Assembly (NCBI RefSeq): GCF_921293095.1
Contig: NC_060246.1
Coordinates: 139,314,198-139,378,197, forward strand
Source: Ischnura elegans
Lineage: Eukaryota > Arthropoda > Insecta > Odonata > Coenagrionidae
DNA length: 64,000 bases
Direction of reading: 5' to 3'
A program made the position numbers and the translations under genes. The notes beneath the pieces are model-generated. The model did not search any database. It had not been told where the DNA came from and was given only the letters and a program-made list of their open reading frames with translations. Positions within the stretch are counted from its first letter, which is position 1; each line of letters opens with the position of its first letter. Below, piece by piece: positions 19,546 through 45,393 of the stretch.

Positions 19546-19599
19546 TGAGGAAACTCTCGCACACGTTGGGCCGTCTAAGTTTTTTCTTTCGGGCTCAGC

Positions 19600-20985: not shown

Positions 20986-21017
20986 GTTGTACATCACTAG
21001 GAGGTAGGATTACAAGG

Positions 21018-21416
21018 TCAAGAGTCGAATAGAAAAAAAAATTTTACTTGGCACTTAGCTAACAGCTTATCATTGACGTGCTGATTCAGAATTCGGAGTT
21101 GAATTCCTCCTGTTTCCCAACTAGATTTCGTCTTAACCGGGTAGTAGTGGACAATTAGGCTACTATTTATTTCTGCATCTAATGCAGCACAAACTTTATT
21201 CACTACTGCTTCCATATTTTCATCACATTGGCTGGGGATGCCATGAAATTTCGTCTTAATACCTAACATGCGTTTCGCAAGGCCATCAGAACGGTTTAGT
21301 GCGTCAGAAAGTTGCGTCTTCAGCACCACATTTTCACTTTGCAATTTGGATATTTGATCTAAAAATTTCTCTAATATTTTACCCTGCGATTCAATTAACT
21401 TTAACCTGTCTCCCAA
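21018..21416 (-). pseudogene. LINE ORF1-type protein remnant
   Basis: A 132-codon minus-strand frame begins with a leucine-heptad region (residues about 1-45, including LEKFLDQISKLQSENVVLK) of coiled-coil type. The following globular part contains MLGIKTKFHGIPSQCDEN and then ALDAEINSSLIVHYYPVKTK. This arrangement, a coiled coil followed by an RNA-binding-like fold with a phrase of the kind I-x-G-I/L-P-x-x-x-x-E, is typical of non-LTR retrotransposon ORF1 proteins. The full-length family product is longer, so this is a fragment. It lies downstream of the LINE at 21985-23520, so it does not belong to that copy. Confidence 0.6.
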
Positions 21417-21984
21417 TTTATCTTATGAATAGTGTTCCCTAGTTTTTTTGATCCGTTATATTTAGTTATTTTATAACCTCTATGAACAAATAAAATATTT
21501 CCTGAAGGGATTTACCTTCCGATTTACTTCTGTCCATACGGCATGTCTTTCGTAAATTTTGGCAGTACACACATTTCCAGGATTGTCCTCTTGATTCAAT
21601 CCCTTCGATGTCAGCGACTCCTGCAGAGAAAATCCATGGAAGGTTTTACGGCAGGTATCGCTATTGATGGAAGTTGTATTCCGTGTGGATGTGTTACACT
21701 TTGCTTACGAACTAATGCCAGAAAGATGTTGTAGGCATGGCGGATATCACTCCTGTAAGCTCGATTTAGCACACTTTTCTTTACACAAATAAGGCTTCCA
21801 CTCAATAAAGGCAACTATTTTCACACATTTAGCCGGAAACTATATGGCTCGCAACCGGCGATGCATTCCACAACGTTGGACGTTGAGTCAACCACACGGA
21901 GTGAGAACACATCCATACCCGACGGGAGCGGAACACGAACTGAATGTAGTCAATCTTAGCACCGGACCTCGTTGCCCTTTAGTT

Positions 21985-23060
21985 TACATCTACATACTAC
22001 CCCGCAAGCCGCCTAAAAAGGCGTGCGGCAGGGGGTATTAGGACAAAAGCCGTTTACATATGAAAGAAAATGCTCTAACGAAATAACGGATAGCATTTTT
22101 TAAAAGTCCTTTATGGTTCGGGGGAAAAACGAATTCACACATCTATCCGTTCGCCAAAATATCTCTCTTAATTTATTGCTTCTGTCGGACCTGGAAATAT
22201 AGAGGGGCTCTAATATTATGTTCTCAATGTCACTCTTAAAGATATCTATTCTCAATTGTTTAAACAATCTTAGCCTATCGCGCAGCCACCGAGTCTCCGG
22301 TGGCTACTTCGCTGGGTAACGCTGTCTGTACGCCCGTAGGAGTTCTATTACGAATCGCGCAGCTTTTATTTGTACTTTGTTCAGCTCGCGGATTATGTCT
22401 TTCTGCACCGCATCCCATATGCTTGCTGCATATTCAAGGTGTGGACAGGAAGAGCGTGAAATAGCACCTCTCTTTCAGTTTCTCATCCGAAAATCCACCC
22501 ACTAAACGCTTGACGATTCCCAGCTTCTTCAGGGCTCTTACAAAAATATTTCTTAAGGCCTGTTTACATGGTACATTAACACGTACGGGTCTAAATGTAT
22601 GAACGTGAGAATAAACGCCAAAACGCATCGTGTAACCAACCAACTTATGCGAATGCATGCACAGAAAATAGAACCTGTTCTAATTTGGTTCTTGCATTCA
22701 TACGTGTTCCGTTCCGATCCACAAAAATCATTCATGGAAACAGACATTAACTCGCACGTGTTAATGTATCGTGTAAACAGGCCATTATATGCGTTCCCCG
22801 AGATAGGGTCGAGGTTATGTTAACTCCCAGATACCTTACTTCATCTGTAACCATAATGTTAAAAACATCCACAGAAAACACATGGAGATAGTAGGGCGGC
22901 CCGAGCAAAAAAATCACTGTCAGATTGCATTTGATCAGATTAAGTTCGAGTCCCCACTCTTGGCTCCACACATGGACGTTTTTTAAGTTCGTAGATGGAA
23001 TTTGAAAGCCTGAGTGATCACTAATACGGCGGGATGGATGGCAACGTCGCGACGTTGCCA
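21985..23060 (-). mobile_element. LINE fragment: RT C-terminal half and 3' end
   Basis: Minus-strand reading gives VHVWSQEWGLELNLIKCNL (near 22960), then EVRYLGVNITSTLS, and after the nested element the segment ALKKLGIVKRLVGGFSDEKL, a broken HLEYAA-like block near 22430 and SRSDRSNKLREIFW (near 22170). It ends in a 3' terminus with repeated tagatg near 21985. Order and motifs are those of the reverse-transcriptase thumb and C-terminal region of a jockey/CR1-like LINE. Stops and shifts are present. It is interrupted by the inverted-repeat element at 22557-22783. Confidence 0.8.
22557..22783. mobile_element. Terminal-inverted-repeat element (MITE) inside LINE
   Basis: The left end, ggcctgtttacatggtacat, and the right end, whose reverse complement begins ggcctgtttacacgatacat, form an inverted repeat. 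It continues into attaacacgt(a/g)cg for about 31 bp with few mismatches. The 227-bp interior is non-coding. The LINE frame is recognisable on both sides, so the element inserted into it. No exact target duplication was picked out by eye. Confidence 0.75.
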
Positions 23061-23062
23061 TC
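23037..23062. repeat. Perfect 26-bp palindrome at LINE junction
   Basis: The sequence reads gatggcaacgtcg followed by its exact reverse complement. It sits exactly where two overlapping LINE fragments meet: the ~190-bp RT segment at 22842-23040 is repeated, diverged, at 23073-23275. Confidence 0.8.
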
Positions 23063-23520
23063 TTCACTTCCTCTGTAGCCTTTATGTTAATACTGGTTAA
23101 TACCATCCACAGAATTAGCATGGTTATGGTTGGACGAACTCTGCAAAAATTGCACCGACATGAATTTGCTCAAATTAAGTTCAAGTCCCCACTCTTGGCT
23201 TCACAAATGAAGGTTGTTTAAATTCGATTATAGAATTTCATTGTCAGAGTGGCCACTAATTTCGCGATAGATGACGGCGTCGTTAGCAAATAAGCGTATT
23301 TTACTGTTAATGCTAGGGCAAAGGTCATTTATGTATATGCCTAATGAACAAAAGGGGGCCCGATACGCTTCCTTGTGGGGCACCTTATGTCACTTCAACT
23401 ACATCAGAGCTAATTCCGTATTGAACTACTTGTTACTTACGATTACTCAGAAAGTCGCGTATCCAGTTTACCACTGTTTCATCTAATCCGCATGTCTGTA
23501 AATATGAGACTGGCTTCCAG
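23063..23520 (-). mobile_element. Second LINE fragment: RT core
   Basis: On the minus strand this carries the core reverse-transcriptase phrases WIRDFLSNR (about 23450), GAPQGSVSGPLLFI (about 23351-23392) and FANDAVIYREISG (about 23250-23290), where FAND replaces the catalytic FADD. It overlaps in content with the downstream fragment (about 190 bp of the same region appear in both), so the two are separate copies or a rearranged copy. It is not functional. Confidence 0.75.
23413..23504. repeat. 92-bp exact duplication, copy 1
   Basis: The LINE RT segment from attccgtattgaac to catgtctgtaaata is repeated without any difference I can see at 24035-24126, in the same orientation. Because the host LINE is old and degraded, exact identity suggests a recent local duplication or assembly duplication. 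Confidence 0.85.
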
Positions 23521-24034
23521 TGGCTCCCAACTCAATTCCCCTACCAGTTAATATTAACACCTTTATATATACTGCCAAATAAGGACTAGTTTAGGGTACA
23601 TTTCTTTGTTTCTTTTGACTTATATGTATTTTGAATTTCCACTCAACTGATCTATACTCGTTCAATGATGAAAGTACTGCTCTGACCTTTTAAATTTCTT
23701 TCAATGGATTCATCATCATCGGTTAGCGATCCTGATAATATTTTATCACAGCTCTCTCTTTTCACACTCTCTTTTCTCACAACAGTCAATCTTTTAATAG
23801 GTACCAAAAAGAAACACGCTTCAAATATTATTTTGCACGTTTTACCAAAAAACAACGGAGCACATTTCTTTATATATTTTGTGCGTTTTGGCTTTGCTCA
23901 GCCCGCAACTACTCGTAATTATAACAGTACCTTTTATGCTAAGATAAAATATTGACGTTGCTTTAACTATCGATTGCCTGAGATTAAAATATATACAAGT
24001 ACGTATATTTGAATTCACGATTGACTTAAATAGT

Positions 24035-24126
24035 ATTCCGTATTGAACTACTTGTTACTTACGATTACTCAGAAAGTCGCGTATCCAGTTTACCACTGTT
24101 TCATCTAATCCGCATGTCTGTAAATA
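24035..24126. repeat. 92-bp exact duplication, copy 2
   Basis: Second copy of 23413-23504. The bases on either side differ from those around copy 1, and no further LINE sequence continues from it, so only this 92-bp piece was copied. Confidence 0.85.
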
Positions 24127-24339
24127 GTATATGAGTTAATAGGGAAATTGCATACTTTTTATAGACAGAATGCTGACATACTACAGTAAATACTTAGTAC
24201 CGCAATATACTTTTTTCCGCTTAAAATTCAGTTTATACACTAGAAAATGAATCCCAAAAGTCTCCCGAGTTTCGCGGGATAAAAAATACCGCCCCCACTA
24301 ATCTTACGCCGTGACGTCATAATTCAGTAGGAGTTCATT

Positions 24340-24870
24340 CAGAAAGAGAGGTGCTATTTCGCGCTCGCCAGGCCACACCTTGAATATGCAGCGAGCGTAT
24401 GGGATCCGGTGCAGAAAGATTTGATTCGTGAAATTAATAAAATACAAAGGAAAGCTGCACGATTCGTAATAAAACCGCTTCGGGCGTACAGAAAGTGTTA
24501 CACAGATGTTAAATGAATTAGGTTGGGAATCGCTGTAGATTCGGAGGCTGCGCGTTAGACTTGGAATGCTTAGGCAATTGACAATGGAAATCTTTCGAAG
24601 CGAAAACGGAGAACATCATATCAGAGCCCCGCCACATTTCCAGGTCTTACAGAAACAATAAATTGAGAGAGATATTTTGCCAAACGGATAGGTATGGGAA
24701 TTAGTTTTTCCCCCGTCGACAATAAAGGACTCAACTAAATGCTGGGCGTAATTTTGTTACAGCATATCCTTTTTATTTGTCAACGGCAGGTGACCTAGCA
24801 CTCCCTGCCATACGCCTATTGAGGTGGCTTGCTGGTTAGTCTGTAGATGTAGATTTAGGTGATTAAAACA
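24340..24870 (+). mobile_element. LINE C-terminal and 3'-end fragment
   Basis: The plus-strand reading gives HLEYAASVWDPVQKDLIREI and NKIQRKAARFVIK (about 24375-24475), the end of a LINE reverse transcriptase. A frame-broken C-terminus follows, and the same 3' terminus as the copy at 21985 (ending gtagatgtagat near 24850). The 5' end is truncated, as usual for LINEs. Confidence 0.8.
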
Positions 24871-24879
24871 ATTTTTAAA

Positions 24880-25745
24880 TAATTTAAATTATGTTGTGGA
24901 TTAGTTCTGTAAAAGGTTAACGCACCGTCTAAATGACGCCCTGATGACAAGTGACGATTAATTAATGATAAATTTCGTTAGTGTATAAATTTTTACAAAT
25001 GCGCTCATAAATATATTGTGTGCTTTCGAGTTAAGAATTTCGAGTTAAGAGTTTCGAGTTAGAATTTTTCCCCTCTTGTCGAGAGTCAGAAATATTGAAA
25101 CTTATACTTTGCGGTGTCCGAAGTAGATGATATTAGTTCTAAAGAATTTCACGATACAGAGGATAATAATGGTTGCCGAAGAGAAGAAATTTGAGTAAAA
25201 GAACGTCATATGTTATGCACTGAGAGCAGTAATAGGAAAACTACTTAGTAGTAGTGATCCTGTGTGATTAAAATTAGCTTTTCAATCATTATTTGTCCGT
25301 AGAAAACTGAAATATCAGTTAGTGCTGGTTTTTATGGAAAAAATTGAAAGGGGCTCCTTAGTTTAAAGCTGATACAGTAATATAAATCTCTATCATTCGA
25401 ATAACTTCATTGGGATTCGGGAAGTACTAACCATTGCCCAGGAAAATTACTGGAATATTTGTTGGAAAATTGCCACATGACAAAATTGATTCGAGTTCTT
25501 TGTATGCCGCCAATGAATAAATTCAGATTAATTTTATAATGTCCGTGAGCGATAAATCATGCGAAGAAAGGAAGTTAGGACCCAAGGAACGCAGTAAATT
25601 ACATTTTCGACGATAGTTTCATTTGGAATCACGGACCAAACTCCTCTTACATTAATATCATGTTTCATAAACATTTATGGAAGGTAGCTTACGTGCTTGT
25701 GATAAGCCAACCCTGCCAAACACTTTTTCAGTTTGCTGGCTGGAT
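24880..25745. other. No gene seen
   Basis: AT-rich, with a short local repeat of the phrase tttcgagttaaga near 25025-25060. No coding motif or splice-bounded candidate. Confidence 0.5.
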
Positions 25746-25751
25746 AAGTGT

Positions 25752-25985
25752 TTCTTTTTTTATTTTTATTTTATTTTTTATTTTATTTTATTCTCAAACC
25801 ACCGGATACAGCTCTTATTGGCCATTTTACACCGGGGTGTTCAACAAATGTAACAAGTAAACGTACACAAACGACCACGCCCTGGACCGGGGAAAACCTA
25901 CCCAGGCGGGACTCGAACCCGCGACCTCTTGTTATTAGTATATTGGTTATTAGTATACCGGGACTAGCCATGGCGGTAAATTTGC
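25752..25985 (-). mobile_element. tRNA-Ile-derived SINE, apparently full length
   Basis: On the minus strand the head carries an A box (tggctagtcccgg, about 25963-25975), an anticodon-loop-like ctaataa (AAU, the isoleucine anticodon) and a near-perfect B box and T arm (cgggttcgagtcccg, near 25908-25922). The stretch around the anticodon loop is duplicated: atactaataac occurs twice. A tRNA-unrelated body of about 100 bp follows. The element ends in an A-rich (aaaat)n tail, seen on the plus strand as tttttatttt repeats at 25752-25793. No target duplication was recognised. The tRNA part is too altered to be a working gene. Confidence 0.8.
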
Positions 25986-29330: not shown

Positions 29331-30379
29331 AAATTTTTTGGTCTCTCCTTAGGTGCAAACCATCCCCAGACGTGATGGGAAGAATGAAGGGTGGAGCAGG
29401 AAGAATGAAGAAAAGAAGAAGACGATGGCCTCTCGGGATCCAATGCTAATTCCTTTTATGTTATTCGGAGAGATTTGACTCGAATTTTAATCCACATTTT
29501 TGATTTTTCAATTTCAGAATGAATATTGAAGAATTAGAATACCATTCATCGACTAACGTTGAAGGCTGGGAAGAGTGCAGTTTTCCTCAGACGCTGGTCA
29601 TTGCCGTATCAGCTTTTCATCAGGTTATTTTGAACATGAAATGGTAAATTAGGGCCGACCTGAGCCCCACACCTGGAGTTATGAGAGACTCCTGGTGGAA
29701 AGTGAATTCACACTATTATAAAAGCACAACCCCTAGGTAACAACAGTACACGAAAGGTAACGGCTCGAAGGAGCAAGTTCAAAAAGGTTTCGAAACACCG
29801 CTGAAACTAAGGTACCAGAAAGTGCACTTTAAAGTTATTTACTACGAATGAGACCGGTCCTGGTAGACAAAGAATGCATTCTTAGGCAGGAAATAAATGT
29901 GGGTATTTTTGTGTGTGTAGTTTTTTAAGGTATTGGGGTGGGTTTTGTACTAACACAATTTATTGTAGGAGTGAAGAATGAAGAAACAAGACGTAGCTGA
30001 GGCCCCGAAGATTGAAGACATCGCTGGGGGCCTCGAAGAATGAAGAGTGAAGATAATGTATGTGTGTTTGGGGAATGAGTGGGCATTGAAAATCCCTCGC
30101 CTGAACTGAGTGTTTTTTTGTACTTAATTGTAACATGTCTGTAACCCTTTCCCTTCCAGCCATGAAGACTGAAGACATCAAATTGAGCTCGAAGAACGGC
30201 AAGAATCCGATTGCGTGTGTTTTTTAATCTATCGTGCGATTTCGTGTGATAATTTTCTGCGTGTGATTATTTATATTTTCGTGTGCTGCGAGTATTTTTC
30301 CGTTGCGTTGCGTTAGGGCTTGCATGTTAGCGTTATTTATTTATTTGTTTGTGCATGCACTAATCTTACCTCTTCACAG

Positions 30380-31618
30380 ATCCAAGCCATCGCTGGACTT
30401 CAAGGAAGGAAGAGTGAAGACTGCACGAAGAAGAGAAGATTGAAGACGCAAGTATTCACAGAAGAAAGAAGAGGAGCATCGTAAGAAGACGTGTGCGATA
30501 TTTGCGGCTTAGTTTTGGGCCCTTCTGGCCAATGAATAAAAATTTGCGTAAGACTAGGCGTTTTTCCGTGCGTTAGTTTTAGTTTTTTTTTGTGCCGTGG
30601 TTTTGCATTACGGAATCCATTGCGTCATGCAGGAATGTGACTGTGGCTAGGTAGGAAATTTATGATTTCCTATCGATGCCATTGTCACGTTCTTGTGTGC
30701 TGCTTTGGAGTGGTGCAAATCCTCGGAAGGGTTATTTATTTGTGTATGCACTAACCCGCTCTCTCCCTAGGTCCGCAAGCCATCGCTGGATGTGAAAGGA
30801 AGAATGAAGATTCATCGGAAGAAGAGAAGACAGAAGAGGGTGGCATCGCGGGACCAGAAGAAGACGACATCTTAGCTTTGGGCCCTTCTGGCCAGTGAAC
30901 ATAAATTTCCGTAAGGCTAGGCGTTTTTTTTGCGCGCGTTAGTTGTAGTTTTTTTGCGCCGTGGTTTTGCATTACGGATTCCATCGCATCATGCGGGAAT
31001 GTGGCTGTGGCTAGGTAGGAAATTTATGATTTCCTATCAATGCCATTGCCACGTTCTCGTGTGCTGCTTTGGAGTGGTGCAAATCCTCGGAAGGGTTATT
31101 TATTTGTGTATGCACTAACCCGCTCTCTCCCTAGGTCCGCAAGCCATCGCTGGATGTGAAAGGAAGAATGAAGATTCATCGGAAGAAGAGAAGACAGAAG
31201 AGGGTGGCATCGCGGGACCAGAAGAAGACGACATCTTAGTTTTGAGCCCTTCTGACCAGTAAAAATAAATTTTCGTAAGGCTAGGCGTTTTTTTTGCGCG
31301 CGTTAGTTGTAGTTTTTTGTGCCGTGGTTTTGCATTACGGATTCCATCGCGTCATGCAGGAATGTGGCTGTGGCTAGGTAAGAAATGTGTGGTTTCCTAT
31401 CGATGCCATTGTCACGTTCTTGTGTGCTGCTTTGGAGTGGTGCAAATCCTCGGAAGGGTTATTTATTTGTGTATGCACTAACCCGCTCTCTCCTTAGGCG
31501 CGATTCATCGCTGGACATGATGATAAGGAGAAAGAAGACACTTGGAAGAAGATTGGATGGTGCACATTATCGAGCCGGCTTCTTGCGGCTCTACATGAGT
31601 TGCAGCAGATAAGGAGCG
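30380..31618 (+). repeat. Tandem exon-plus-intron repeat, about 364-bp unit
   Basis: Units begin at 30380, 30771, 31135 and 31498; spacing is 391, 364 and 363 bp. Units 2 and 3 are nearly identical, unit 1 is more diverged and the last is truncated. Each holds an acceptor (ctctctccctag type), a purine-rich segment containing catcgctgga, a tttgggcccttctg block, a donor-like gtaag, a ttttgcattacgg block and a small hairpin (taggaaat, 5-base loop, atttccta; 30651-30671 and 31016-31036). The repeat boundary respects the splice-like signals, as if an exon and its intron were copied together. Separate units have stops in two frames. Confidence 0.85.
31498..31618 (+). other. Candidate exon, last unit of tandem array
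   Basis: Acceptor ctctctccttag at 31486-31497 and donor-like gagcg|gtatga at 31619. One frame is open throughout (40 codons, including IAGHDDKEKEDTWKK), but joining to the next predicted exon at 32478 meets a stop after nine codons. It could be the end of a coding region or untranslated RNA. Confidence 0.35.
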
Positions 31619-32477
31619 GTATGATCTCTTAATATTCATTCAAATTTGGTTCATTTTTCCAATACAAATTTTTAAATTAAGGAGTCGCTTGAGAATGTTC
31701 AATTTTGCATTCCTTAACGGAACTCAATTGTGCTCATGCTTATACTGAACTTCTAATTTGCCCATAATGCAATCAAAATAAACAAATAAACTTAATATCC
31801 TCCTCAATTTAGTCATTGACTACTTAGCTTGAAAATTGTACTTGGTACTTAGTAACTGGAAGTGATATTTCATTGACCTATTAACTTCGAATTGAATTGA
31901 AAACTTATGAAATATATTGCAATGGGCAAAATATTTTTTTGTGCCAACATTTTTCTGGATGACTCACAATCACCTATTAACGTATTTTATTTACAAGGGT
32001 TTTCAAGTCAAAATATCACCTTCCTTGACAGTTTCCGAAAATATTTTCGCATTATAAAGCAGTGCGAATAACCTTTATTTGTAATTAGTTTCTAATTATT
32101 TGTTTATTCATCACAAATTTTATTTTGATTTTTCATTCTGAATCAGAATTATTTAACTATTTTTATCCTGTGAAAGGTTACCCACTTCAAAATCAATCCT
32201 TAATTTTTCCTATTTAAACAAATATATAGTTCCATTTAATTGGAATTAATTTTTTATTTTAATAAGTATTATTAGTTAATTGAATATTATTTTAATTTCC
32301 CCTGCAATACGGGAAATGTTATTTTCACTCGAAGTTTTTTTAATCTAATTAAAAGGTGAGCATATCCACTCTGACGTCAATGCGCCATAAGAAAATTTAT
32401 TGATTGATTCGGTCATGAGGCCGGTTTTCTAGGACATTGATTTGTCTCTTCATGAGTGTTCGTTTTTTCCATTGCAG

Positions 32478-32576
32478 AGTTCGTTGGAACGTCTTGTGTG
32501 AGTTGACTACTCGAGGCCTCGATGAAAGCACGTGCAAAAAGATCGAAAGAATGCAGCTCGTTGACGCAGGCAGACG
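32478..32576 (+). other. Candidate internal exon with strong splice sites
   Basis: A clean acceptor (cgttttttccattgcag, AG at 32476-32477) and a strong donor (cagacg|gtaagat, GT at 32577) bound 99 bases. One frame is open (phrase LDESTCKKIERMQLVDAG), the other two have stops. The open frame does not match the phase left by the predicted upstream exon. This is the best-bounded exon in the array region; product unknown. Confidence 0.5.
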
Positions 32577-34373
32577 GTAAGATTTCATTCATTCCTCTTC
32601 CAAGTTTTGAGTTCAGTTCAGAACCATTATTTAGTGATCACATAGGTACACTATAATTTTTATATTCAGGAACCTCGATGATAAAAGTAATGAATGTGTG
32701 ATAAAATAAATAAATATTTTCACTTTTGCAACGCGAAAATATTTAATTAAACCGCACCAAAAATTAAGATCTCGTGCTTTTTTTGCAACTCTCACAATAC
32801 TTAAATCCCGCGCTGAATATCAAGGCATTGATTGGTTGACGACGACGATAGCGTTTGCTTTCATATATTTCGGTTTGTTACTTCATTTCCATTAAATTTA
32901 ATAATTCAAATGAATGACAGTTATGGGGATTTTCGTGAATCTATCATAAGTATTTACTTTTCTCTTTAATTTTCTCATTGTAATGTGGAGGTCGAGGTTT
33001 CCATATTAGCCTTGCTTTTGATAACCCAGCAACCGTCATGCGCGCTCAAGTACTTACTTCCTCGGAGACCCTACCTGAGGGAAACATGAGATTCCGGTGA
33101 TATTTTCTACCTTTCTGAAATTTTCCGTGAATTTAATGAGTATAAGTGACATATTTCAAAAAAAGTCGCAACAATAATGTCACAATGATTGATACTCTTT
33201 TGTGTTTAATTTTGGGTACTTAATTTCTGGTGACACGTTTTTCCTAGCTATTAAATATTTATTAATCCAATGGTGTCGGAAAAATCAGTATATATTTTTC
33301 ATTTTTTCGGTTGTTTTTTTTCTGAAGTGATACTTTGACCCCTGGCTCTTTGCATGATCTTGAGAATTAACTTATATTATTTCTTTCGTATCAGAAGACT
33401 TAATTATAAAATTACATCCTACAAGAAATTATTAAAATACATCCTCCTGGATAGGTGTGGTGTCCTTAATATGGATGCAATATTTGTAACTTCTGATTTC
33501 GTCTTTTTAAATAATTTCAACGTATTGATTTTTATAATTTCATTATTGTTTTCCAATTCACATGATAGTACATATATTAAATGCAGAATGGTATATATTT
33601 GCTATCAATGTTTAGTAATACCCATGAAGTCCAAGTAAGTCGTAAAAAAGGTATATATATATAACAGACTCAGCTCACCGTAATGATTTCCGGGAAATTT
33701 TTTAATATTGCCCGATCATATCTTTAAAATGTTTAAAGAATAATGAAAATACATTGAAATATCGCCGATGAGATAAGCGCCAAATAATTTGGAGTTACCC
33801 GCTCTTGCATTTTTTTTATTTTAAAAATTTCTTGACCATTACAAAGTTAATATTTTCTCAACGTCTTCCTCGAAATGATATTTCTGAGCTGAAAGTTAAC
33901 TTTTTAGGTCTCCCCTTCGTTGGATTTTGAGAATTTTTTGTTATATTACCACAGGTCATGCTTGTGGACAACGACAGCGATTGCTTTTGGAGACAACTGT
34001 GGAGGTCCATGAAATGGACATCTGAAGGTTACTGCGCCGACAACTAGAGACTTGAGGATTTATCGTGAGGAAAGGAAGAATGAAGATAGGAAGAAAGAAG
34101 ACACCACGCCTGAAGATAGTTGTTTTTTTTTTGCATTTTTTGTTGCAATTATTGTACAGGGTGTTTGTATATTTTTTATTTATCCATGTATTTTTTCCAG
34201 CTATAGTTAGGATTTGCGGCAGGAGAGTAGGGAACTTATATTGCGTCCTACCGTCGAGTAGAAATAACTCAGATTAGGCAGGTCTTCGTATATCGTGGCC
34301 ACGATTCCGTACTTAGGCGTTTAGTTAATTCAGGCGTATAAAGAAGTATTTAGGTAGGCAGGGCTGTATGAAT

Positions 34374-34490
34374 GGATGAATGTGATTTTATGAATGAGTG
34401 AATGGAATGTGATTTTATGAATGAGAGGGTGGAATGTGATTTGATGAATGAGTGAATGGAATGTGGTTTATGAATGAATGAATGATATTA
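34374..34490 (+). repeat. Short minisatellite, about 30-35-bp unit
   Basis: About four imperfect copies of a unit built from gaatgtgattttatgaatga and gtgaatg occur in a row. They lie directly after the first copy of the box above. The third copy of that box (near 35860-35890) carries a single related unit, so this may have expanded from its end. Confidence 0.75.
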
Positions 34491-34627
34491 GTAGTAGTAG
34501 TGCTTGATTTTTATGAATTGCTAATTCTTTTTTGTGTAGTTTTTTTATTCTTATTAATTTTGGTCGTAGTGTAGTGCATGCCCCCCTCAAATCCAAACTG
34601 TTCCCTCATCGTGGGGAGGGTGTGTAA

Positions 34628-34780
34628 CAGGGATAAGTCATTAATTTACGCCAAATGCTTACAATATTGCACCCTTATTGGGAATGTGATGGAATATTTT
34701 TTTTCAAAGTTTATGGTTTTTCCGCATGAGTTGCAAATTGTTAATGTTATTTGATAACATGCAAATATGACTTATCCCTG
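34628..34780. repeat. 14-bp perfect inverted repeat, 125 bp apart
   Basis: cagggataagtcat (34628-34641) is the exact reverse complement of atgacttatccctg (34767-34780). In RNA this would make a long-range stem closing a 125-base loop. Confidence 0.7.
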
Positions 34781-36425
34781 GCTAAAACAGTTGGTGCATT
34801 TGTGATTTGTATATAAATACGTGAAATCATTGAATATAATATATTATATGTTGCTGTGTTCTTTATTCCAGTGCTAAGTACTATTTGCATTACTGTTTTT
34901 GTGGGTTTTCGATAATATTTTACAGAGCCTTCTTTTATTTTTGTAACTATTGCTTGTGTTTTTGCCAGCTATAGGCTGATCTATATCCTGACTTGGGGCA
35001 GGAGAGTAGGGATTTAATATTGCATCTGACAGTTGTTAAGAAATGACTCAGAATAGGCAGGTCTTCGTATTTGCGACCATGAAAATATAATTAAGTAACA
35101 CCTTGACCAGAATAAATTGTACCCATTGCTAAGGTCGATTTGTATTATCGTTGTTGATATTTTTTCTCGATTTTTAATGATATTATTTTAATAACAGTTT
35201 AAATTATTTATTTAATAATTTTAAATGCTATAAAATGGTGTGCATGTAATTTCTCCCTACTACTTTGTACTGGTAAAGACAATAAAACTATTTTCTATAT
35301 ACCTTTGACTATGTTACAAAGGAGATGTTGTAAAAATAAAACATTTTAATATCTTTGTGATTGGTGACATAAAATAAAACATTTTACATGTAATTTTTGT
35401 GAAAATTAAAGTGCTGGTACAAATCCAGTAAAATGGAATGTCGTTAAGGTATTGACAATATTTTACATTCGTCAGTTGACAATTAACCTAAATAAAGTGA
35501 ACATTTTCAGAAAGCATCCATCAAGGTGCAATTTCATTGGGCATATATTAGGTATATAACTATATTTTAATTCATTCAATTGTAAGCAAATAGGCGATTT
35601 GTTAGCATTGTTAATCCATTTTTTGTAATGATAATAGGACATTGTTGCACAAAAAAGATTAAGAAAATGTATTTTTTCGGCTACAGTTTAGATTTGGAAC
35701 AGGAGAATAAGGGTTATATATGAATTATATAATGCTGTCGATTATAAATAACTCAGACTAGGCAGGCCTTTGGTCATCGTGACAATGAGTCCATATTATG
35801 GCGTGATATTAATTCAGGCGTGCATGTTGAGGTATTTAGTTAGGTAGGGCTTTAACAATGGATGAATGTAATTTTGTGAATAAGTGTAATTGTACTGGTA
35901 ATGCTTGATCAGTATGAATTGATTTTAATAATGTATGTTTTAATTTTTTATAACCATTGGGAGCATAAACATCCCCAATATTTCTCCCCTGGAGGACTAC
36001 CTGCAACGCATCTACTGAGAAGACCACAAGCCCTCCAGCACTCCAATTTTCAAATTATGTTGTTACATTTCATTATGTATTCCAGTAATCAATTAATTGT
36101 TATAATGCTGAGAGATTATTTCATCGCTAAGTAGCTGAAAAGTTTGTAACGAGTGCATCGTTGTCTGAAACCTCCAAAGCGACGACAAAAGAGAATCAGT
36201 GCAGGCAAGCCACATAACACCCAAACTCTTCATACCTTTCTGGCAATGTGGCTGGCTGAGAACTCAGCAGCGATCTGCCAGATCAGTTCAACCATGAAAA
36301 TTAGAGCCTAATTTTCATAGCTAATTTTCATTGTTTTTTTTAAATATATGAAACTGTTAGACAGTAAGATGGAGGGGAAGGGGCTTTGAGATATCGGCCT
36401 CGAATATTTATACATATAAGATGAA

Positions 36426-36570
36426 AATATTCCAGGTTGGGCACACACAGTACAACACAATTTAATAAAAATTTGTCCTAAATCTGAAGAAGGTGGTAGG
36501 TGCCCCTGAAAATGTATTTATTTTCATCTTTAAGTGTGTATTTTACTGTGTGCGCCCAACCTGGGACATT
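36426..36570. repeat. Fold-back element with about 33-bp arms
   Basis: Arms 36426-36458 and 36538-36570 are inverted copies (ccaggttgggc-cacacagta) with a few mismatches. A 14-bp direct repeat (atttatacatataa) lies outside both arms near 36405 and 36609 and might be a target duplication, though unusually long and not adjacent. Non-coding. Confidence 0.55.
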
Positions 36571-36628
36571 TTTGTGTTATACACCTCATAGAAGAATTAC
36601 CTGAAGCATTTATACATATAATGGTAAG

Positions 36629-36822
36629 CAGGGGCGGATCTAGGAATTTCTTTCAGGGGGGGGCACAAGCGCGACCGTTCCAGGATTTTGTTCTAGGGGG
36701 GACAAGGATACTTCGTAATACAAAGCGAACGCATTGATAATGGGACCGTATTAAAAATATTGCATTTTTTTAATGGTCTGGGGGTGCACGAGCCCCCGTG
36801 CCCCCCTCTAGATCCACCATTG
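36629..36822. mobile_element. Small hAT-like element with 8-bp target duplication
   Basis: Ends caggggcggatctagg and, reversed, caatggtggatctagagg form terminal inverted repeats. Exact 8-bp direct repeats atggtaag flank it at 36621-36628 and 36823-36830. An 8-bp duplication is the hallmark of hAT-superfamily transposition. The 194-bp interior is non-coding with G-runs near the left and C-runs near the right end, as in the relative at 13627-13792. Confidence 0.8.
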
Positions 36823-36989
36823 ATGGTAAGTTATTAGTTATATTTATATATTGTCACTTCTTGGTAGGGTAAGGTAGCTACCCCAAAAAACCGGATGCAG
36901 TAAGATCCAGTATTATATGTATAATATATTTTAGTGCAACAAGAGCAATCTCACATGGTCACTGAGTGTAATACATCGCCGGCGAGAGG

Positions 36990-37230
36990 GGCGAGACAAT
37001 TCCCGCAGCCGCTCCTGTGCGAACTCCCGTCCCCCATCCAGCGACGGGCTATGCTGCTATCACGCGAGGTTTGCGGAGAAGGCTGATCACTGTGAGTCCC
37101 CATGTAACTTCGCGGAAAACATGTAGGGCAGTTGGTATACGCGGCAAGCGCCCTGCAGTCAGCCGCCTTTTCATCACTGACGCCACCTCTGAACTGCAGC
37201 ATCTCATCGACACTGGATGGGACTTGTAGA
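36990..37230 (+). mobile_element. Ty3/gypsy protease fragment
   Basis: A plus-strand frame (37017-37229, 70 codons) ends with SRLFITDATSELQHLIDTG followed by WDL and a stop. RLF-x-TD-x-T-x-x-L-x-x-L-I/V-DTG is the start of the aspartic protease of insect Ty3/gypsy elements; the catalytic Asp is in DTG near 37210. The rest of the protease and all downstream domains are gone. The block is much more GC-rich than its flanks. It is unrelated in detail to the gypsy remnant at 7985-8600. Confidence 0.65.
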
Positions 37231-37719
37231 ATCCTGGAGGGAAAACTTCGCTGTCGCTTATATCCTTCATAAGTCAACTCTCTGTTCCTATGACCATGCC
37301 TACGTCCTGAAATTTACACCCGATTTTAGCACTCTTGTTTATAACGCTATGAAAATTAATTGCGACAAAGTTAATGTCATATTTTTAAGATTACCTTTCG
37401 GTCGGTTCTTTTCTTCGCTGTTTATAAGATGAGTGTATCACTATGAAAGTGCTAATCAATTTAGATATAGTAGCTTTCCCTGGAGTAAGGGTTTTGGATA
37501 TTTGTCATTTCCCTGCATTACTGCTCCTAAATTTAATTCAGGTGATGTGAGGATTTACGCATGTGTGGATCACCTTGGAGTCTAAATTTATAAAATTTTA
37601 CTCCTTAAAAAAATTCAGTATTGAATTTTTCTTAGTCTCCACCATTATTATGTTGATAAAATAAATAACATTCATTTCATATATTATGTTTAAAAAATGA
37701 AAAAAAAAGATTTATTTAT

Positions 37720-38440
37720 TCGGACTTGATCCCTCGCAGGATTCTCATGAAGTTACAGCGCACCGTATGGACCCACTCGGCTACGATTACAAATGCCTAT
37801 GGAGCTACGTATTGGTAAGAGGTAAACGGTGAGTCCAAATATGAATCCAAAGATAGGAAATGATATCTGCGGAAAGCAAAAAGATAATTTTCTTCATTAA
37901 AAATTTTACAACGACAGGAGCGTTTAATTAAGTTAATATGCGTTAAAGTGGATTTAAAAAATTGTTACTGCCATAACATGCAACAAAAAAATTGTTGCAG
38001 AGTGGTTCGATTACTTCGGATTACTACCGCAGTAAGTCTTCTCCTTAACCTATAGTCCATCTCACTCGTTGACTCCGACGGGGATACATTACGAGCTTTG
38101 TCAGGAAAGGGAATGAACCAGTCTTCTGGTGTCACTAAATCAAACTGAATTTTAACACTTTCATACTTCGACGAATTGGCCAACTTAAAGAAGTAAAGTG
38201 TCGCTCTGGACGTAGATTTATTATGTAGCATGAGCTGCACAATTTATGTGGTATTAAACGCTGCACATATCCCGCATGCATTTCCCTTTACTGATGTTGT
38301 TATAAAAATATTGCGGGAGGTGGGAATGTTTTTCAAATTTCCCTCCCACTGGTGCAATAGAAAATACCGAAACTCGATTTCAAAACTGCGGCGAAAGTGG
38401 CGCCGCTCCATTTGTTGCAATACTTTTGAATCCGACTGTA
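37720..38440 (-). mobile_element. 0.7-kb composite element with 3' tRNA-like module
   Basis: On the minus strand it begins tacagtcggattcaaaag at 38440. About 100 bp here match 5262-5370, and a unique middle of about 500 bp follows. It ends with a tRNA-like module: A box tagccgagtggg (37772-37783) and B box ggatcaagtcc (37722-37732). The middle contains a 91-codon minus-strand frame (37965-38240) with the phrase PEDWFIPFPDKARNVSPSES; I recognise no family. The shorter copy at 5262-5452 lacks the middle. The tRNA-like module at the far end is odd for a SINE. An element that picked up a SINE, or a SINE that picked up host sequence, would both fit. Confidence 0.65.
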
Positions 38441-38444
38441 CATA

Positions 38445-41400
38445 ATATCTGCTGACTACCTCATAGCATTACTTTGTGGGTGGTTTTGCTATCTTTCTAA
38501 ATCAAAGGGAGAATGTCATCGAGTAAGGCACTCGTTTTGCCGTGGAATTCGATAAAAAGAGCTCGGTACCTTTTTATATTCTTCATGTACACTTGAAAGG
38601 CTTTTTATAAGGGGTCTATTTCCATTAGAATAGGTTTGTGTTTAATCGGAGTATAACTTTTGTGAGAGAAATTTTATTTTTGTAAAAGAAGTCTAGATGA
38701 AGTTCAGTAGCGAATGCAAATTTCTTGGTGATTGAAGAAACCTGCATTAAAATAAGCCCCCGATGATAACTCTTTTACTGATCGTCTTGAGTGAAAATAT
38801 TACCATCAAGTGCTAAGGTTTACTGTTGTTGTTGTTTATTGTTGGTGTTAACGTTGAGTATTGTTTTGCATTTTATGACGAATCTAGAAGTATTTACCTA
38901 AGGAGTATTTACCCTCGAAAGCTGGTCAAAATTAAATATCTAGTCGTAATTGATTCAAACTAGGTAAATTAATTATTTTTGTGCGGTGAGTCCAAATATG
39001 ACGTTACCCAATAAATATATATCAAATGAAAATTAAAATGTCGCCCAACTTATTAAATATTTCCATAATTCTTTGGATATTTTTTTTGTAATTTTGGATG
39101 ACGCCATATTTACGAGTTTCTCTGCATTTAATGAGTTTACACTTCGTTCGGATACGCACTTATAACTTTAAAACTCTAACTCATACCATGAAACTCAAAA
39201 TTTCATAATAAAGTTTAAGCTGTTTGTGCCATTCCTGTGATTAATATCTCAAACCTTTATCTTAGGATTTTGAATTTTAACGTCTGTCTTTAACAAGTGA
39301 AATACCACATATCGCGACAATGGAGAAAATGCGTTGATTAAAACAAGTTAAGGAAAAAATATGATTTCCGAAAAGTTAACTTTTTTTCACCTCTGTGCAA
39401 GGTTTGGACTGAGTTCAGGATATCTTGGAAGTAATTTGTTTAGTTAAATTACTGTAAGAAAGAATTGGCATCCTATTTACCTAGAAATACCATTTAAAAT
39501 GTATAAAAGGCAATTTTTTAAATTTCACATTTTTAAGGTGATGCATTTTTACAAAACAAAAGAAAATATATCAAAACCACTTAAAGTCATGTTGTTCTAC
39601 AATCAGATATTTTTAGCCGTTATTGTTTCGTTATAAATTTATCCCAGGAAATCCGGGTTTTAACTCTGAGAATTGAAGGATTACATGCATCCTAGGTATA
39701 TGAGGTTTCTTTTGTTATTTATGTGCACCAATTGCTGGTGCTATTTTTTTCTCAGGTGACATGTTCAGCCGTTAAAAATACCATCTTCGGTATAGCTGCA
39801 TTATAATGAAAAAGTGTGCATTAAAATACAATTGGTTAAAAAAATAATTTAGTATATTTGTAAATGCAAACTGAATGAATTTTTTTGAACTCCATTTGTC
39901 GTTGGGAAAGAATCAGGAGTCCTTTGTATGAATTGTATTATTGAGTATGAATGACATAAGTTTTTCACTCAAAAAAGATATAAACACCAACATTCTCTTT
40001 ATATACTTCATAACTGAATATTTTCAGCAGTGCAATGAAACTTTTCATTACTTGGTAGTTTCAATTGAAATTATAATATGCCGCTGAGCTTTAAAATCAC
40101 TGCAAGTGTTCAATCCGTCAAGTTAAAATCATATCAAAGGTACATGCAATTACATCAAAGCATCCTGCATCCAAGTTTTCTTGAAACTTTTTGCCAATTC
40201 ACGGATGTGCTTTCTATCACCTTTATTCACCAGAATAGTGCCAGCCAATGTAAAGCCCTTCCAAAGAGGGCGTGAAAGCAGGTCTGACAAAATTTGCTGT
40301 TTCGTGGCTCACTCCAAACAAAAAACGAATATCTTGACTTTCGCCGAGATTTTTAAGCCCCGTTCAGAATTTTGGATGTCTATCGTTTGATACGGTGAAC
40401 AACTCGACTAGCATCGATAATATCAGAATAATTAGTTTTCCTCGGCATTAAGGAAAACAAATATATTGGCAGAGATTCAGGGATGTTTTATTTGGCGGAT
40501 TTTAAGCATAAATCCTTTTCATTTTCGGTGCATCTACCTGAAGTGCCACTGATATTCAAAATTAGACAGGGTAATAATTTTAAGGCTACGTTTCATTTTT
40601 CAGTTGCATTACCAGAAAAACGGAAAAAACCTGGTATATCATTACCGAAGTGAAATTATGAGGAATATTAATCATCCGATTAAGTTTTTTAAAGCTTAAA
40701 TTCACAAAGTATCATCGTTTATCTTTAAGGCTGCAAAAAGTTGTCTCAATTAACGGGAGGATAATGAGATACATGAAGTTTTTCTTAACGTAATGTCTTC
40801 GCAAGGTCGTGCTAGCGATGTCTTATCCTCTTCGTAAATGGGCAGCAAATTACGTCAAATATTCATAAAAATAACTACTTATTTTTGTTAAAGACTGTTC
40901 AAACTGCTGTTATTAATTAATATGGTTTCAATAATATGTTTACTCTGGAAACATCTCAATATAGTATACTCTTTTGTTGAACGAAGTATGTATTGAAAAA
41001 GTTACCTAAAGTATTTTCTATTTTTTCTGCGTAATTTTATGTGCTCTCCGTTGAGTATCTGTCTAGAATTAAATAATGCCAAACCATTGCAGCGATATAT
41101 TCCCGATGCGTTTTTGCCGTAATTTTTTAGATAAATAATTTCTATGCCTAGGGATACCAGTACCAAGTGCTTCCCTTAGCTTTAACTAACTTTATTAAGT
41201 ATTTATTTAATGGTAAACGTGAGGTTTATTACAAAATTAATGTAGGGAGGGAATGATTCTCCAATACTCCACCAATAAGCATATTCGTAATAGTAAGTTT
41301 GTTTTAAACTATGTTGGCTCATTAATAAAAATGAAATGGAGTCGAAGGTGAATGGTGTAAATTTTTCGGTTAAGAGTCTTATGTAATTTTGGAAGTCGAA

Positions 41401-42140
41401 GCGATGAATAGATAGGTGTCTCAGTAGCAATTAAGTGTATGAAGTGATTGATGGGAAAGTAATCCAGGGCAACTGACGTCTAATAAAAGGGGAGTATCAA
41501 GTCGAGTGGACGTATAGGTGGCTTAGGTACAGAAATGTTAAAGGTTTTTTATTGTATTGTCCCTATGGGATAGTATGCCTAAAGTACAGAGTTTTCAAAA
41601 GCTTTGATGGTGAACAACGGTTTTATGACTACTCAATGCATTCTTATTTCCGATATATTTACGAAATCATACTTGTTTTTCAAAAAATGCCTTTAAATGA
41701 CTTAAATGTACCAATATGTTACCTTTAAAGTTACTTAGGAAGATAAGTATTCAGCTTCAGTTTAGCCGCGTAAATATCCGCGCCCTATTTAATTCTCCCA
41801 GCAAAAATCATGCCGACTTGATTGTCGACTTAAAAATATAAAAAAAATCCTAATTTAATATAAACTACCGCTTTCATAGTGAAAAACATAATGATGTCCT
41901 CCTGATAATGGCAAGACAAAGGCAACGGTGCTATGCAAGTTTCTCTGACCGCTCATTTCCTCGGAAAAGTTAATTCATAAGTAAAAATAACTCAAGGAAA
42001 AATAATATTCCATAGCTGGAATTTCGGTATTTCTTCAGTATCTACTACTGTCATTCATTTCAACTTTATATGACTATTAGCTTTGGATTTCGAAAGACAC
42101 AATATCCATGACCGCGCGAAAAGTGCCGAACACGGATACT
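38445..42140. other. Long AT-rich stretch, no gene seen
   Basis: Mostly A+T with short chance frames. A tgttgttgttg-type run lies near 38822-38840. Small frames at 40078-40390 (+) and 41203-41430 (-) match nothing. No repeat family was recognised by eye. Confidence 0.5.
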
Positions 42141-42149
42141 TTTTCTCTT

Positions 42150-42165
42150 CTCGGTATATAAATAC
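42150..42165 (+). promoter_or_regulatory. TATA-box-like sequence
   Basis: ggtatataaatac is a close match to a TATA box. It lies about 280 bp before the GC-rich island at 42430-43130. No initiator stands out at the expected distance, so this may be chance in AT-rich DNA. Confidence 0.25.
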
Positions 42166-42429
42166 ACTGGCAAAATGAATACAACGTTTTTAACACCAAA
42201 ATCAACGCAGAATGAAATAAGCTTCATTTTGAAGCCAACAACTTGAAATCGGACGAACCGTTACTTCTCTTCAAAGCCTCGAAATCGGGTGTAGAACTTT
42301 TGAAATGGACAGTAATAATATTCGCTTAAACGGTGGAAGCATTTTTTTTTTTTTGCGTTTCATTCAAATTAATTTAGTGTTAATTGACCAAAAGCATATT
42401 TCCGTAAACTATTTTTTTCGCTAAAAGCG

Positions 42430-43430
42430 ACTTGCGGAGCTGTTCACAAATATACAGTGGAAAGAAAGAAATATTTCTCCCACCACTCCGTGCGACTTTC
42501 CGCTCTTTGGGTGCCACGAGGCCATGTCGGCGATCGCTCCAACGCCCGTCAGCTAGGCGCAAAGGCGAAGTGCGAGGTCTCGCACTCGGCGTCAACCGAT
42601 CAAAGCCCTCCACGTCACCAACGAACTGTGCAAGTACCAGCAAGAATTCGTCCTTCGAAATTGTAGCAGGAGTGGGGGGATTAAAGCAAAAAAAAAAATA
42701 ATAAAGACTTTCGATTGCGAGTGTAGCCGAGAGTATCCCGGTCATTTCCTTCGCCTGGATTTACTTGGTCCAATTTCGGGAGGGGAAGGGGTTTCGGAGT
42801 GGGAGGAAAGGACCGGCGGGCGGATTTTCACTTCCCTTGCACTCCCCATTCCCCTCCGACGCTTTCTTCGCCACGGGCAGATCCCTCTGGTGAGTGCGGC
42901 CAGAAGTGGAAAGTGCTCTCTACCTCCCTCACTCCTCCTCGCGATCGACGTCGAAAGAGTTTCGAAAGATGTAGGGAGGGCATTGGCCAGGTTGGGGGAA
43001 GAGGGAAAAGGGGAGGGTTATAGGGTGAAGGGAGGATTAAGGGAGGCGAGGGGTGTTTGCGGAAAGATATGCGGAGGGGGAGAGACCGGGGAAAATGGGA
43101 GAGAAACTGCCCTTTTATTCGCAACCCAATCGAGATCGCTTTTACTGATCCAACGCAGTGGATCGGAGCGTTCCCGTGTTGGTTTTTTATTTACCCCCTC
43201 CTACCCCCTTCACCAGTGGGCACTCCTCCCTCCGATCGAAACTGGTGGTATGGATTCGCATCACTTGTAAATGCGCTCTCAGTCAGCGAGAGTTGGATCT
43301 CTTCCTCCGTTTCCTTAATCTCTCTCTCTCTCCCTCCCTCTCTCTCCGAACGGACGAGAGCTGAGAATCAACTGAAAAACAAACAAACTAATAAAATGGT
43401 CAAGGGATGCGGAGTACATTTCTATTAACT
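42430..43430 (+). promoter_or_regulatory. GC-rich island with CT repeat and donor-like site
   Basis: Against AT-rich flanks this block is GC- and CpG-rich, with overlapping open frames on both strands that are compositional. A strong donor-like site, ccctctg|gtgagtgc, falls at 42890. A tctctctctctc tract lies at 43319-43350. Together with the TATA-like site upstream, it could be a promoter and untranslated first exon on the plus strand. It has no recognisable protein. Confidence 0.35.
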
Positions 43431-43972
43431 CGTCCCTTCCAGCATGGGGAGGGGGTTGGGATGCGACGAGGTCTTTTGAGGAAGAGAATGGAGCAGAGAA
43501 AGAGAGAAATAAGGAAAGGTTTGTCCGTATTCAAAACACAGATTCCCTCGCGCGAACCGGTTTTAAAAGGGCGGTCATCCTAATGAGACAGGACAGGCTC
43601 GAGTTTTGTGGGCTCGTTAAGGGGAAAATATAGGTGAAAATATTCTTGCGAGGACCATTTATTAATAACCATCGGTATTAAATTGAAATTGACTCGAGTC
43701 TTCTCTACTCAATTGCATTCAGAAAAGCGAAGCTTTGAAAGGCAAATCGAAGTTGCCGAAAAGGAGATTCCTCGAAAGAATATTCTTTTTCTTAAAAATA
43801 TTAATTTTATTATGGCTCATGATGGCTGTTGGCTTGGCGTATGAGTAATTTCGGTCCCAGCTATATATTGGTGCTGGCTTCGTTAACGTTATTTGTTGCG
43901 CATTTTATTCTCGTTCTCGTCGGGGAGCAAGTAAACATATTGCTTTCAGGTGGAATCAACTACATTCTATTC
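43431..43972. other. No gene seen
   Basis: GA-rich start (gagaaagagagaaa near 43493) grading into AT-rich sequence. Nothing coding is recognisable. Confidence 0.45.
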
Positions 43973-44226
43973 GATGCACAAAGGTTAAGAAAACACTTAG
44001 CTGTTTCACAAAATAAAATATATTGCGACCGGTTTCGATACAGCGTATCATCATCTGGCAATTACAAGTATCAGTACACAGAATTTATACCCTTGAAGGC
44101 CTTATACCCTATAAATTCTGTGTACTGATACTTGTAATTGCCAGATGATGATACGCTGTATCGAAACCGGTCGCAATATATTTTATTTTGTGAAACAGCT
44201 AAGTGTTTTCTTAACCTTTGTGCATC
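43973..44226. repeat. Perfect palindrome, 117-bp arms, 20-bp spacer
   Basis: Arms 43973-44089 and 44110-44226 appear to be exact reverse complements; the spacer (44090-44109) contains aaggcctt. Each arm includes cgaaaccggtcgcaatatat (read outward), a phrase of a kind that recurs in arthropod dispersed repeats. A 12-bp direct repeat tacattctattc lies just left (43961-43972) and again at about 44269-44280, 43 bp beyond the right arm. Frames read across it on both strands are mirror artefacts. Perfect arms mean either a very recent fold-back insertion or duplication, gene-conversion maintenance, or an assembly/template-switch artefact. Confidence 0.9.
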
Positions 44227-44229: not shown

Positions 44230-45040
44230 AAGGAGTTTCACCATGTTACGCCAACCACCATCGCATTTACATTCTATTCTTTGTGCCTACCTTTGCAGAA
44301 GACTCATCTCTGTTAATTGACTTGATTTAACGAAGTAAAAGGTTCGAGTGATAATTAGATATGTGTGATTCGTGTGCAAACCTACATGACATTCGTAGAT
44401 TGATTGTCCAAAGCAAGATGAAAAACTATGCATGAGAAACACTCTTGACCGCTAACTTAAAATCAAGTTTAGGTGCTAATTTATCATCAACACTCAACTC
44501 TGATGACAGATTTGTAAGCATCAAAGTTTATGCGTATTGAATTACATGAAAAATAAATTGTTTACTTTTCTTCGCCGTTCGCAATTCGCCCACTGATATT
44601 TCATGATGCAGGTGAAATATTTTCAAAACATGCCCTATAGTAGTGCCGTAAAACATCGAAAAAGCCCCAGCGTATTCTCTTATTATGTTTACTGTGTACT
44701 TTTTAACCCTTGCGATTCTAATATATTAATAATATTAGTAATTAGTAATATTCTAGATTTGCGAAATGGGGATGCGCACTGGTACTGAATCGATTCTTGA
44801 ACCTTTTTCCATTCCCCGAGGCACTTATTGACTGAATTCAACTACTCAAAATTAGGCGCTTTTTATGGTTAGATAAATTTCTTTTCATTCCTGCAAGGTG
44901 TGTTTATTTTCCAAATTCTTGAGATCTTAAACCGTATCGATTACTTTTGAAATTGATTCCATCTATTTTATTCTCTGTGCGTAATTTTTTTCATAAAATG
45001 TTTTGGGCGATTTAATAGCGATTCTACGAAAAGCATGCTT
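44230..45040. other. No gene seen
   Basis: AT-rich, short chance frames only. Confidence 0.5.
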
Positions 45041-45046
45041 TCAAGA

Positions 45047-45360
45047 ACGAGGGCCGTTTTTTTTCAACCTCCGATGGGTCATGGTCATGATCAGAAGAAG
45101 AAGTGATTGACTAAAAATTATTTCATTGCTAAATGTTGACACTTGTGGTGTCCTTTCCGCATAATCGCCCCTGCGATTGAGGAATTGGTCGACCCTCTAG
45201 ACAAGCTTTGCGAGCGTAAAGATGGAATTCCCCCGGCTATATCGGCATTGCACGGCGGGTAATCGAAAAATGTCCCATTGAAATTACTCAAGGAGCAGTT
45301 GGGCTGTATCAGCGCGGAGATAACGGGCGTTGTCATGGATCAGAACACTTCAAGTCAGCA
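45047..45360 (-). mobile_element. Truncated mariner element, copy 1 (internal deletion)
   Basis: Begins acgagggccgtttttttt and continues tcaacctccgatgggtcat. It matches the neighbouring copy at 45394 closely but lacks the stretch between caagctt and cgtaaagatgg, about 120 bp. The minus-strand protein trace is therefore only the end and the part around the second catalytic Asp. Confidence 0.7.
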
Positions 45361-45393
45361 TGTATCTTCTTTTGTTTTGCAAGCTTTGCAAGT

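Follow-up and report, generated by a model that had tools for sequence, protein, structure and literature searches.

Does a run of purine-rich, exon-like segments on chromosome 1 (C1) of the damselfly Ischnura elegans represent an RNA gene of the host, or does it belong to a larger mobile unit? The segments lie in a stretch of 64,000 nucleotides, called the window, to which all coordinates refer unless a chromosome is given. An earlier note on this DNA had proposed a non-coding RNA gene at 29353–35345 that had grown by exon duplication, with a structure that no mobile-element family explains. Our analysis led to a different reading, to which we assign a probability of roughly 0.8, namely that the exon-like stretch is internal cargo of a giant DNA transposon with terminal inverted repeats (TIRs). 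The whole element extends from 5265 to 38438 and comprises 33,174 bases, with the exon-like core inside. Genome-wide searches were performed with an assembly of 1,722,721,009 bases in 110 contigs, in which C19 is the X chromosome.

The exon-like stretch is a dispersed repeat

As the core query we took the initial 1,948 bases of the interval 29353–35345. They match at least 39 other places at 91–96%, mostly over the full query (best 40 of 464 candidates scored). A match to a dispersed repeat family was what the earlier note had named as decisive against its gene, and such a family is present. With up to three mismatches allowed, a tag of 34 bases placed at the acceptor of segment 5 has 290 matches in the genome, and a 3′ tag located 5.7 kb further on has 150; the controls gave 0 in both cases. 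These tallies count parts of elements, not complete elements. We read the exon-like stretch as repeated cargo whose core is present at considerably more than 100 sites. A unique host RNA gene was rejected as the primary reading because of the dispersed occurrence of the unit and its TIR ends. The listed core copies are all at least 88% alike, and no diverged source locus was found among the best 40 candidates scored.

The distribution of the core is skewed towards the chromosome ends. Among the first 100 exact core tags (C1–C8), 69 lie 5–20 Mb from a chromosome end (22 expected), and three are at a distance of more than 40 Mb (42 expected), a skew that is inflated by clusters. The clusters consist of same-strand cores spaced by 50–100 kb. 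In the cluster at C1:11.51–11.84 Mb, five copies are 94–99% like a separate copy termed L056. For copies on other chromosomes the similarity to L056 is 88–92%, and for a copy at C1:15.81 Mb it is 95%. Since the cluster copies are closer to L056 than those on other chromosomes, the C1 cluster seems to have grown by local duplication. Six core copies located about 0.3–4.1 Mb from chromosome ends (C1:2.18, C3:138.76, C4:134.38, C6:125.51, C8:116.49 and C19:119.59 Mb) have near-equal scores against the window (2671–2681 bits, 92–93%), as if one copy had spread between chromosome ends by block exchange.

Borders of the proposed giant element

The limits of homology were estimated with two queries, 3500–8600 for the 5′ side and 36000–44000 for the 3′ side. 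Among the matches listed, 23 of the 56 others start at 5249–5266 and none starts further 5′, while 28 of the 84 others (at 27 places) stop at 38438–38451 and none extends beyond 38451. Four copies are shorter on the 5′ side and start at 5544 (C1:158.47, 158.75 and 159.03 Mb, and C5:133.61 Mb). A self-comparison of the window revealed that 5260–5373 matches 38329–38443 in inverted orientation with 97% identity over 115 bases, and both ends read GTA followed by CAGTCGGATTCAAAAGTATTGCAACAAATGG. The coordinates are compiled in Table 1.

An end tag was found 242 times in forward and 247 times in reverse orientation with up to two mismatches (control 0). Exact tags bound the window element and form eight further long pairs of 19–40 kb, including pairs around a listed core at C2:118476354–118509087, C4:103215878–103253564, C5:31822572–31860976 and C6:11867941–11901286. 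Pairing of both ends by hand on one strand yielded 14 other elements of 28.9–45.5 kb, e.g. C2:42256023–42299848 and C4:34874749–34914482. CAGTCGG is preceded by GTA at 35 of the 36 ends that were fetched, as well as at both window ends. The G stands before the TA at the same 35 ends, and a GTAC duplication is possible. The outer flanks that were inspected differ among copies, with the exception of two identical inverted flanks of a short member termed L048. The shared limits of homology, the inverted ends, the GTA flanks and the differing outer flanks argue, at the level of sequence, that one TIR-bounded unit, and not a gene, is what moved. The GTA flanks do not agree with the TTAA target of piggyBac, and the clear TIRs do not agree with Helitrons, which are devoid of TIRs.

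Table 1. Features of the element in the window; the element strand was set to + because the exon-like segments are on +
Feature	Position	Strand	Remarks
Flanking TA, 5′	5263–5264		
5′ terminal inverted repeat	5265–5373	+	starts CAGTCGGATTCAAAAGTATTGCAAC; 97% inverted match to 38329–38443
Sub-terminal repeat	5384–5464	+	inverted counterpart 37705–37785, 90%
Whole element, 33,174 bases	5265–38438	+	
3′ terminal inverted repeat	38329–38438	−	
Flanking TA, 3′	38439–38440		
Open reading frame pieces of retroelement-like stretch 16619–21422	16622–16831, 17701–17976, 18709–18918, 21018–21422	−	
Stretch arranged unlike most other copies	22555–25763		common to one C6 copy
Reverse transcriptase fragment	22747–23169	−	RVT_1, E 0.0022, 18.2 bits, below curated cut-off 29.6
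Exon-like segment 1	29353–29440	+	end arbitrary
Exon-like segment 2	29518–29640	+	end arbitrary
Exon-like segment 3	29969–30057	+	donor GT at 30058, intact in 16/20 other copies
Exon-like segment 4	30160–30214	+	GTGTGT next
Exon-like segment 5	30380–30547	+	donor-like GT 30548 intact 20/20; second at 30481, 18/20
Exon-like segment 6	30771–30910	+	donor-like GT 30911 intact 20/20
Exon-like segment 7	31135–31274	+	donor-like GT 31275 intact 16/17
Exon-like segment 8	31498–31618	+	donor-like GT 31619 intact 20/20
Exon-like segment 9	32478–32576	+	donor-like GT 32577 intact 20/20; no GAAGA
Exon-like segment 10	33955–34120	+	end arbitrary; acceptor AG intact 19/20
Tandem array of exon-plus-intron unit, 363–364 bases	30508–31498	+	
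Second internal repeat, three diverged copies	34186–34400, 34990–35070, 35667–35886	+	

Short members of the TIR family

Short elements of 0.4–7.4 kb (L030, L031 and L048–L055) are delimited by the same end tag. Their ends are 87–96% alike to those of the window element, and several of them have inverted arms of up to 1.3 kb (e.g. L030 and L031). In contrast to the window element, none of the ten short members that were read contains a match to the exon-like core. A Tc1-type transposase was seen neither with Pfam on six of their frames (one each from L030 and L053, two each from L048 and L055) nor, for the others, in open-frame lists, which cover all members except L031 and L049. Among the frames tested, piggyBac-type Pfam matches occurred only in L048 (6.1e-10) and L055 (0.0028, below cut-off). 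We read these matches as nested insertions; no TTAA border was found at the junctions inspected. In L048, a 6.3-kb element, positions 1–593 and 5892–6484 are exact inverted copies of 593 bases, which include the flanks (about 97 bases each) and the arms. This identity represents an odd palindrome or a feature of the assembly.

Structure of the exon-like segments

All ten segments are directly preceded by AG, and a donor-like GT follows six of them (segments 3 and 5–9); no clear donor was found after segments 1, 2 and 10. GAAGA occurs 51 times on the + strand of 29353–34120 and four times on the − strand, while 300 first-order Markov simulations of this interval gave a mean of 7.8 and a maximum of 16. 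In the same simulations 0.06 copies of GAATGAAGA were expected, and six are present. For CATCGCTGG the values are 0.003 expected and five found (30019, 30388, 30781, 31145 and 31506). With the tenth segment counted to 34120, 50 of the 51 GAAGA motifs are located within the acceptor-led segments, nine of which contain the motif. If the cargo is spliced, its GAAGAA-type sequence would presumably act as an exonic splicing enhancer. A unit of 363–364 bases, composed of an exon-like and an intron-like part, is arranged in tandem with 93% matches. The number of these units differs among copies.

Much of what the earlier note had described was thus recovered, i.e. acceptor-led segments in a single orientation, several donor-like ends, the shared phrase CATCGCTGG, the duplicated purine-rich segments and the lack of a long continuous joined frame. 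The four junctions that it had predicted (30058/30160, 30911/31135, 31619/32478 and 32577/33955) have the right dinucleotides. It had ascribed one type of sequence to all ten segments; the GAAGA motif is present in nine of them and absent from the segment at 32478. The proposed interval stands as far as 34120, whereas 34120–35345 contains a different repeat and no such segments. A scan of the window with Rfam gave 0 matches at gathering thresholds, and a tRNA scan of the window found none.

Conservation of the splice-like sites

The splice-like sites were compared in an alignment of 21 copies with a mean pairwise difference of about 5%, and the kinship between copies was kept in the statistics. 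The ten acceptor AGs are broken in one of 197 cells, compared with 16.8 expected from AGs within 400 bases (P = 0.004); the cells are not independent, and the acceptors of segments 6–8 belong to one repeated unit. In L056, which is 91% like the window, all six covered acceptors are intact. Two results on the donors speak against splicing: the set of six donors is broken in 5 of 117 cells (11.9 expected, P = 0.31) and thus has no excess conservation, and the donor at 30058 is lost in four of 20 copies. For the three best donors alone, which were picked afterwards, P is 0.07. The diversity of the pyrimidine tracts is not significantly lower (P = 0.15). The mean pairwise difference of the exon bodies (0.026–0.087) overlaps that of the gaps (0.029–0.070), in a comparison for which some segment borders are one or two bases off, and constraint on the exon bodies was rejected because of this overlap. 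A block of low diversity at 29600–31600 (about 0.038 versus 0.057–0.064 in its neighbours, averaged by hand) comprises exon-like and intron-like parts alike. Collectively, the sites provide modest evidence that splicing occurred during the spread of the family, but none that the cargo has a function today. It is plausible that the element gives rise to a spliced RNA. The proposed non-coding RNA may thus exist as part of the element, be it as cargo or as a gene that the element itself owns, in light of the conserved acceptor AGs, while the unique host gene is not retained.

Several of these values would also be compatible with a cargo within the transposon that is decayed and untranscribed, with splice-like borders that are relics of an old Pack-type capture and have no present role. 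The overlap in diversity, the broken donor 30058 and the P values of donors and tracts agree with such a decay, and so does the variable number of units among copies. The near-complete retention of acceptor AGs in the alignment and in L056 speaks against it. We regard decay of the cargo as a serious possibility, at somewhat less than even odds.

A non-coding RNA gene of the host, or a family of such genes, that arose by exon duplication and was later multiplied together with its surroundings, so that the element-like ends are incidental, appears improbable. It would account for the strong acceptor-led, purine-rich architecture, for acceptor AGs that are conserved beyond their neighbours and for the same-strand clusters. 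However, the homology of the copies stops at the inverted repeats and TA and not at gene borders, short elements that lack the core have the same ends, and conservation of the exon bodies does not clearly exceed that of the gaps.

It is even less probable that the segments encode a fast-evolving acidic/basic repeat protein, the alternative offered in the earlier note. One frame is open in most of the 21 copies for segment 4 (21), segment 9 (20) and segment 8 (18). The longest open frame of consecutive joined segments has 85 codons (segments 5 and 6), and joining any ordered subset of segments 3–10 gives at most 99, reached by one subset. Against this reading, the joined segments lack a continuous frame, segment 3 is interrupted in almost every frame and copy, and short open frames are to be expected anyway at a divergence of about 5%.

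Contents of the window element and a candidate transposase in relatives

The open frames inside the window element are short. Of its 72 listed frames with at least 70 codons, 11 were analysed with Pfam, together with eight proteins of relatives and one encoded in the window outside the element. Apart from the piggyBac-type matches mentioned above, these 20 proteins gave weak reverse transcriptase matches and one coiled-coil match below cut-off. The stretch at 16619–21422 is presumably a decayed, nested non-LTR retroelement, although no Pfam model reached the cut-off for its pieces. Near 22555, the copy on C9 has about 6.6 kb for which the window contains only short weak matches. Retroelement remnants that are common to copies suggest that the unit went on multiplying after their insertion. 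A Polinton/Maverick or another large self-replicating element is hardly credible, because a size of more than 15 kb and inverted termini would fit, but the flank is TA instead of a six-base duplication and none of the frames tested, which include 11 of the 72 in the element, gave a polymerase or integrase match. The window copy is classed as a non-autonomous element with Tc1/mariner-type ends.

A genome search for DDE_3, in which the best 150 of 1224 candidates were scored, revealed matches inside core clusters. One of them, an exon near a core (L057), matches DDE_3 with an E value of 1e-11 and the Sleeping Beauty chain with 1.6e-13, and it is located behind an acceptor-like tract. We compared the positions of transposase copies with those of the first 100 exact core tags (C1 to C8:99.96 Mb, mismatched cores left out). 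The test was confined to C1–C8, pieces of one locus were merged and weaker rows were omitted, the distant copies used being a part of the total. Among the close copies with at least 76% identity, 14 of 27 are located upstream of a listed core at a distance of up to 35 kb, compared with 0 of 44 distant copies and 0.3% of random points; four coordinate shifts as a control gave 0, 0, 1 and 0 of 27. Nine of the 14 linked copies are on the strand of the core, and eight of these nine are located 25.1–28.9 kb upstream (C1, C4 and C5). As the clusters arose by block duplication, the linked copies are not independent events, yet four chromosomes are involved. The difference between close and distant copies suggests that longer relatives may carry their own transposase.

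A further-reaching version appears doubtful, i.e. a self-mobilising Tc1/mariner-type element of 40–50 kb that encodes its transposase in a gene with introns. Downstream of this gene, and on its strand, such an element would have a non-coding RNA that is spliced, with acceptors kept by selection among copies and an evolving number of tandem exons. If it were true, the cargo RNA would serve the element, for example as 3′ exons or as a regulator of the transposase transcript.

Several observations weigh against a giant transposon and its proposed transposase. One of the 36 fetched ends, which belongs to C2:118476354–118509087, is without TA, and the search for an empty site with joined flanks gave only one-sided matches. 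Part of the core copy number is due to block duplication. No transposase was recognised in the window copy with Pfam on 11 of its 72 frames, the window has no row among the 150 scored DDE_3 candidates, and the L057 exon has only a chance match to the window (E 5.4), which lies outside the element. The L057 exon changes frame after the last conserved motif. Five of the 14 linked transposase copies are on the strand opposite to the core, and 13 of the 27 close copies are without a listed core in range, although several of them are in the same clusters and the list of cores is incomplete. The link between transposase and core is one of coordinates only.

Under the transposon reading, a Tc1/mariner-type transposase would bind the CAGTCGG ends, excise the unit and insert it at TA, preferably within G-TA-C. 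The window copy would depend on transposase supplied in trans. A Tc1-type transposase gene is probably present in longer relatives, some 25–29 kb upstream of the cargo, and copies of the window type would be derivatives that have lost it. Local tandem duplication of blocks of 50–100 kb could have generated the clusters. Most likely, the cargo is or used to be a transcript of the element that has several exons and is largely non-coding.

Comparison with known elements

Tc1/mariner elements such as Tc1 and Sleeping Beauty resemble the damselfly element in their TA flanks, their TIRs and a Tc1-type transposase of the DDE_3 subfamily, which is linked to cores in the damselfly. Their TIR consensus begins with CAGT, as do the TIRs in the window. 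They are textbook small transposons with a usual size of 1–5 kb, and transposition is held to fall with length. In contrast, the damselfly elements have lengths of 29–46 kb, no transposase was seen in the frames tested of the window copy, and retroelement remnants as well as a multi-segment cargo are present. A family of 29–46 kb with Tc1/mariner-type ends at many places in one insect genome would move the length limit. If the cargo is spliced, it would represent a tractable transposon-borne multi-exon RNA with an exon number that varies from copy to copy. Gene-like cargo between TIRs, without a transposase, is also typical of Pack-MULEs (Pack-type TIR elements), but the damselfly element is much larger.

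The damselfly family would add an animal case to the giant DNA transposons. In the brown alga Ectocarpus, giant KDZ, EnSpm and Sola-1 transposons are described as generally longer than 10 kb and sometimes longer than 30 kb, with nested insertions that are fixed among copies; many carry transcribed genes, and families without a transposase are thought to be moved in trans (PMC12477816). Size, nested insertions and the proposed mobilisation in trans are features shared with the damselfly element, whereas the superfamilies and the host differ. Teratorn is a giant composite built on a cut-and-paste transposon, with piggyBac-type ends and viral cargo (PMC10175614). The giant cut-and-paste base is similar, but no viral gene was recognised in the damselfly frames tested. 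The words mariner and Tc1 are absent from the main text of a review of giant eukaryotic transposons (PMC6431247). Titles and the beginnings of abstracts from literature searches gave no report of a giant Tc1/mariner family or of this element.

Further features of the window

Outside the element, a near-perfect palindrome of 254 bases is located at 43973–44226 (96% to its own reverse complement), and partial tandem duplications (86–89%) are present at 45033–45833. An open reading frame at 45443–45793 on the − strand recalls the C-terminus of a mariner transposase, for which Pfam gave nothing. The region 52001–54000 has a G+C content of up to 0.527 and long overlapping frames on both strands, which could reflect either the CpG-rich start of a gene or another repeat.

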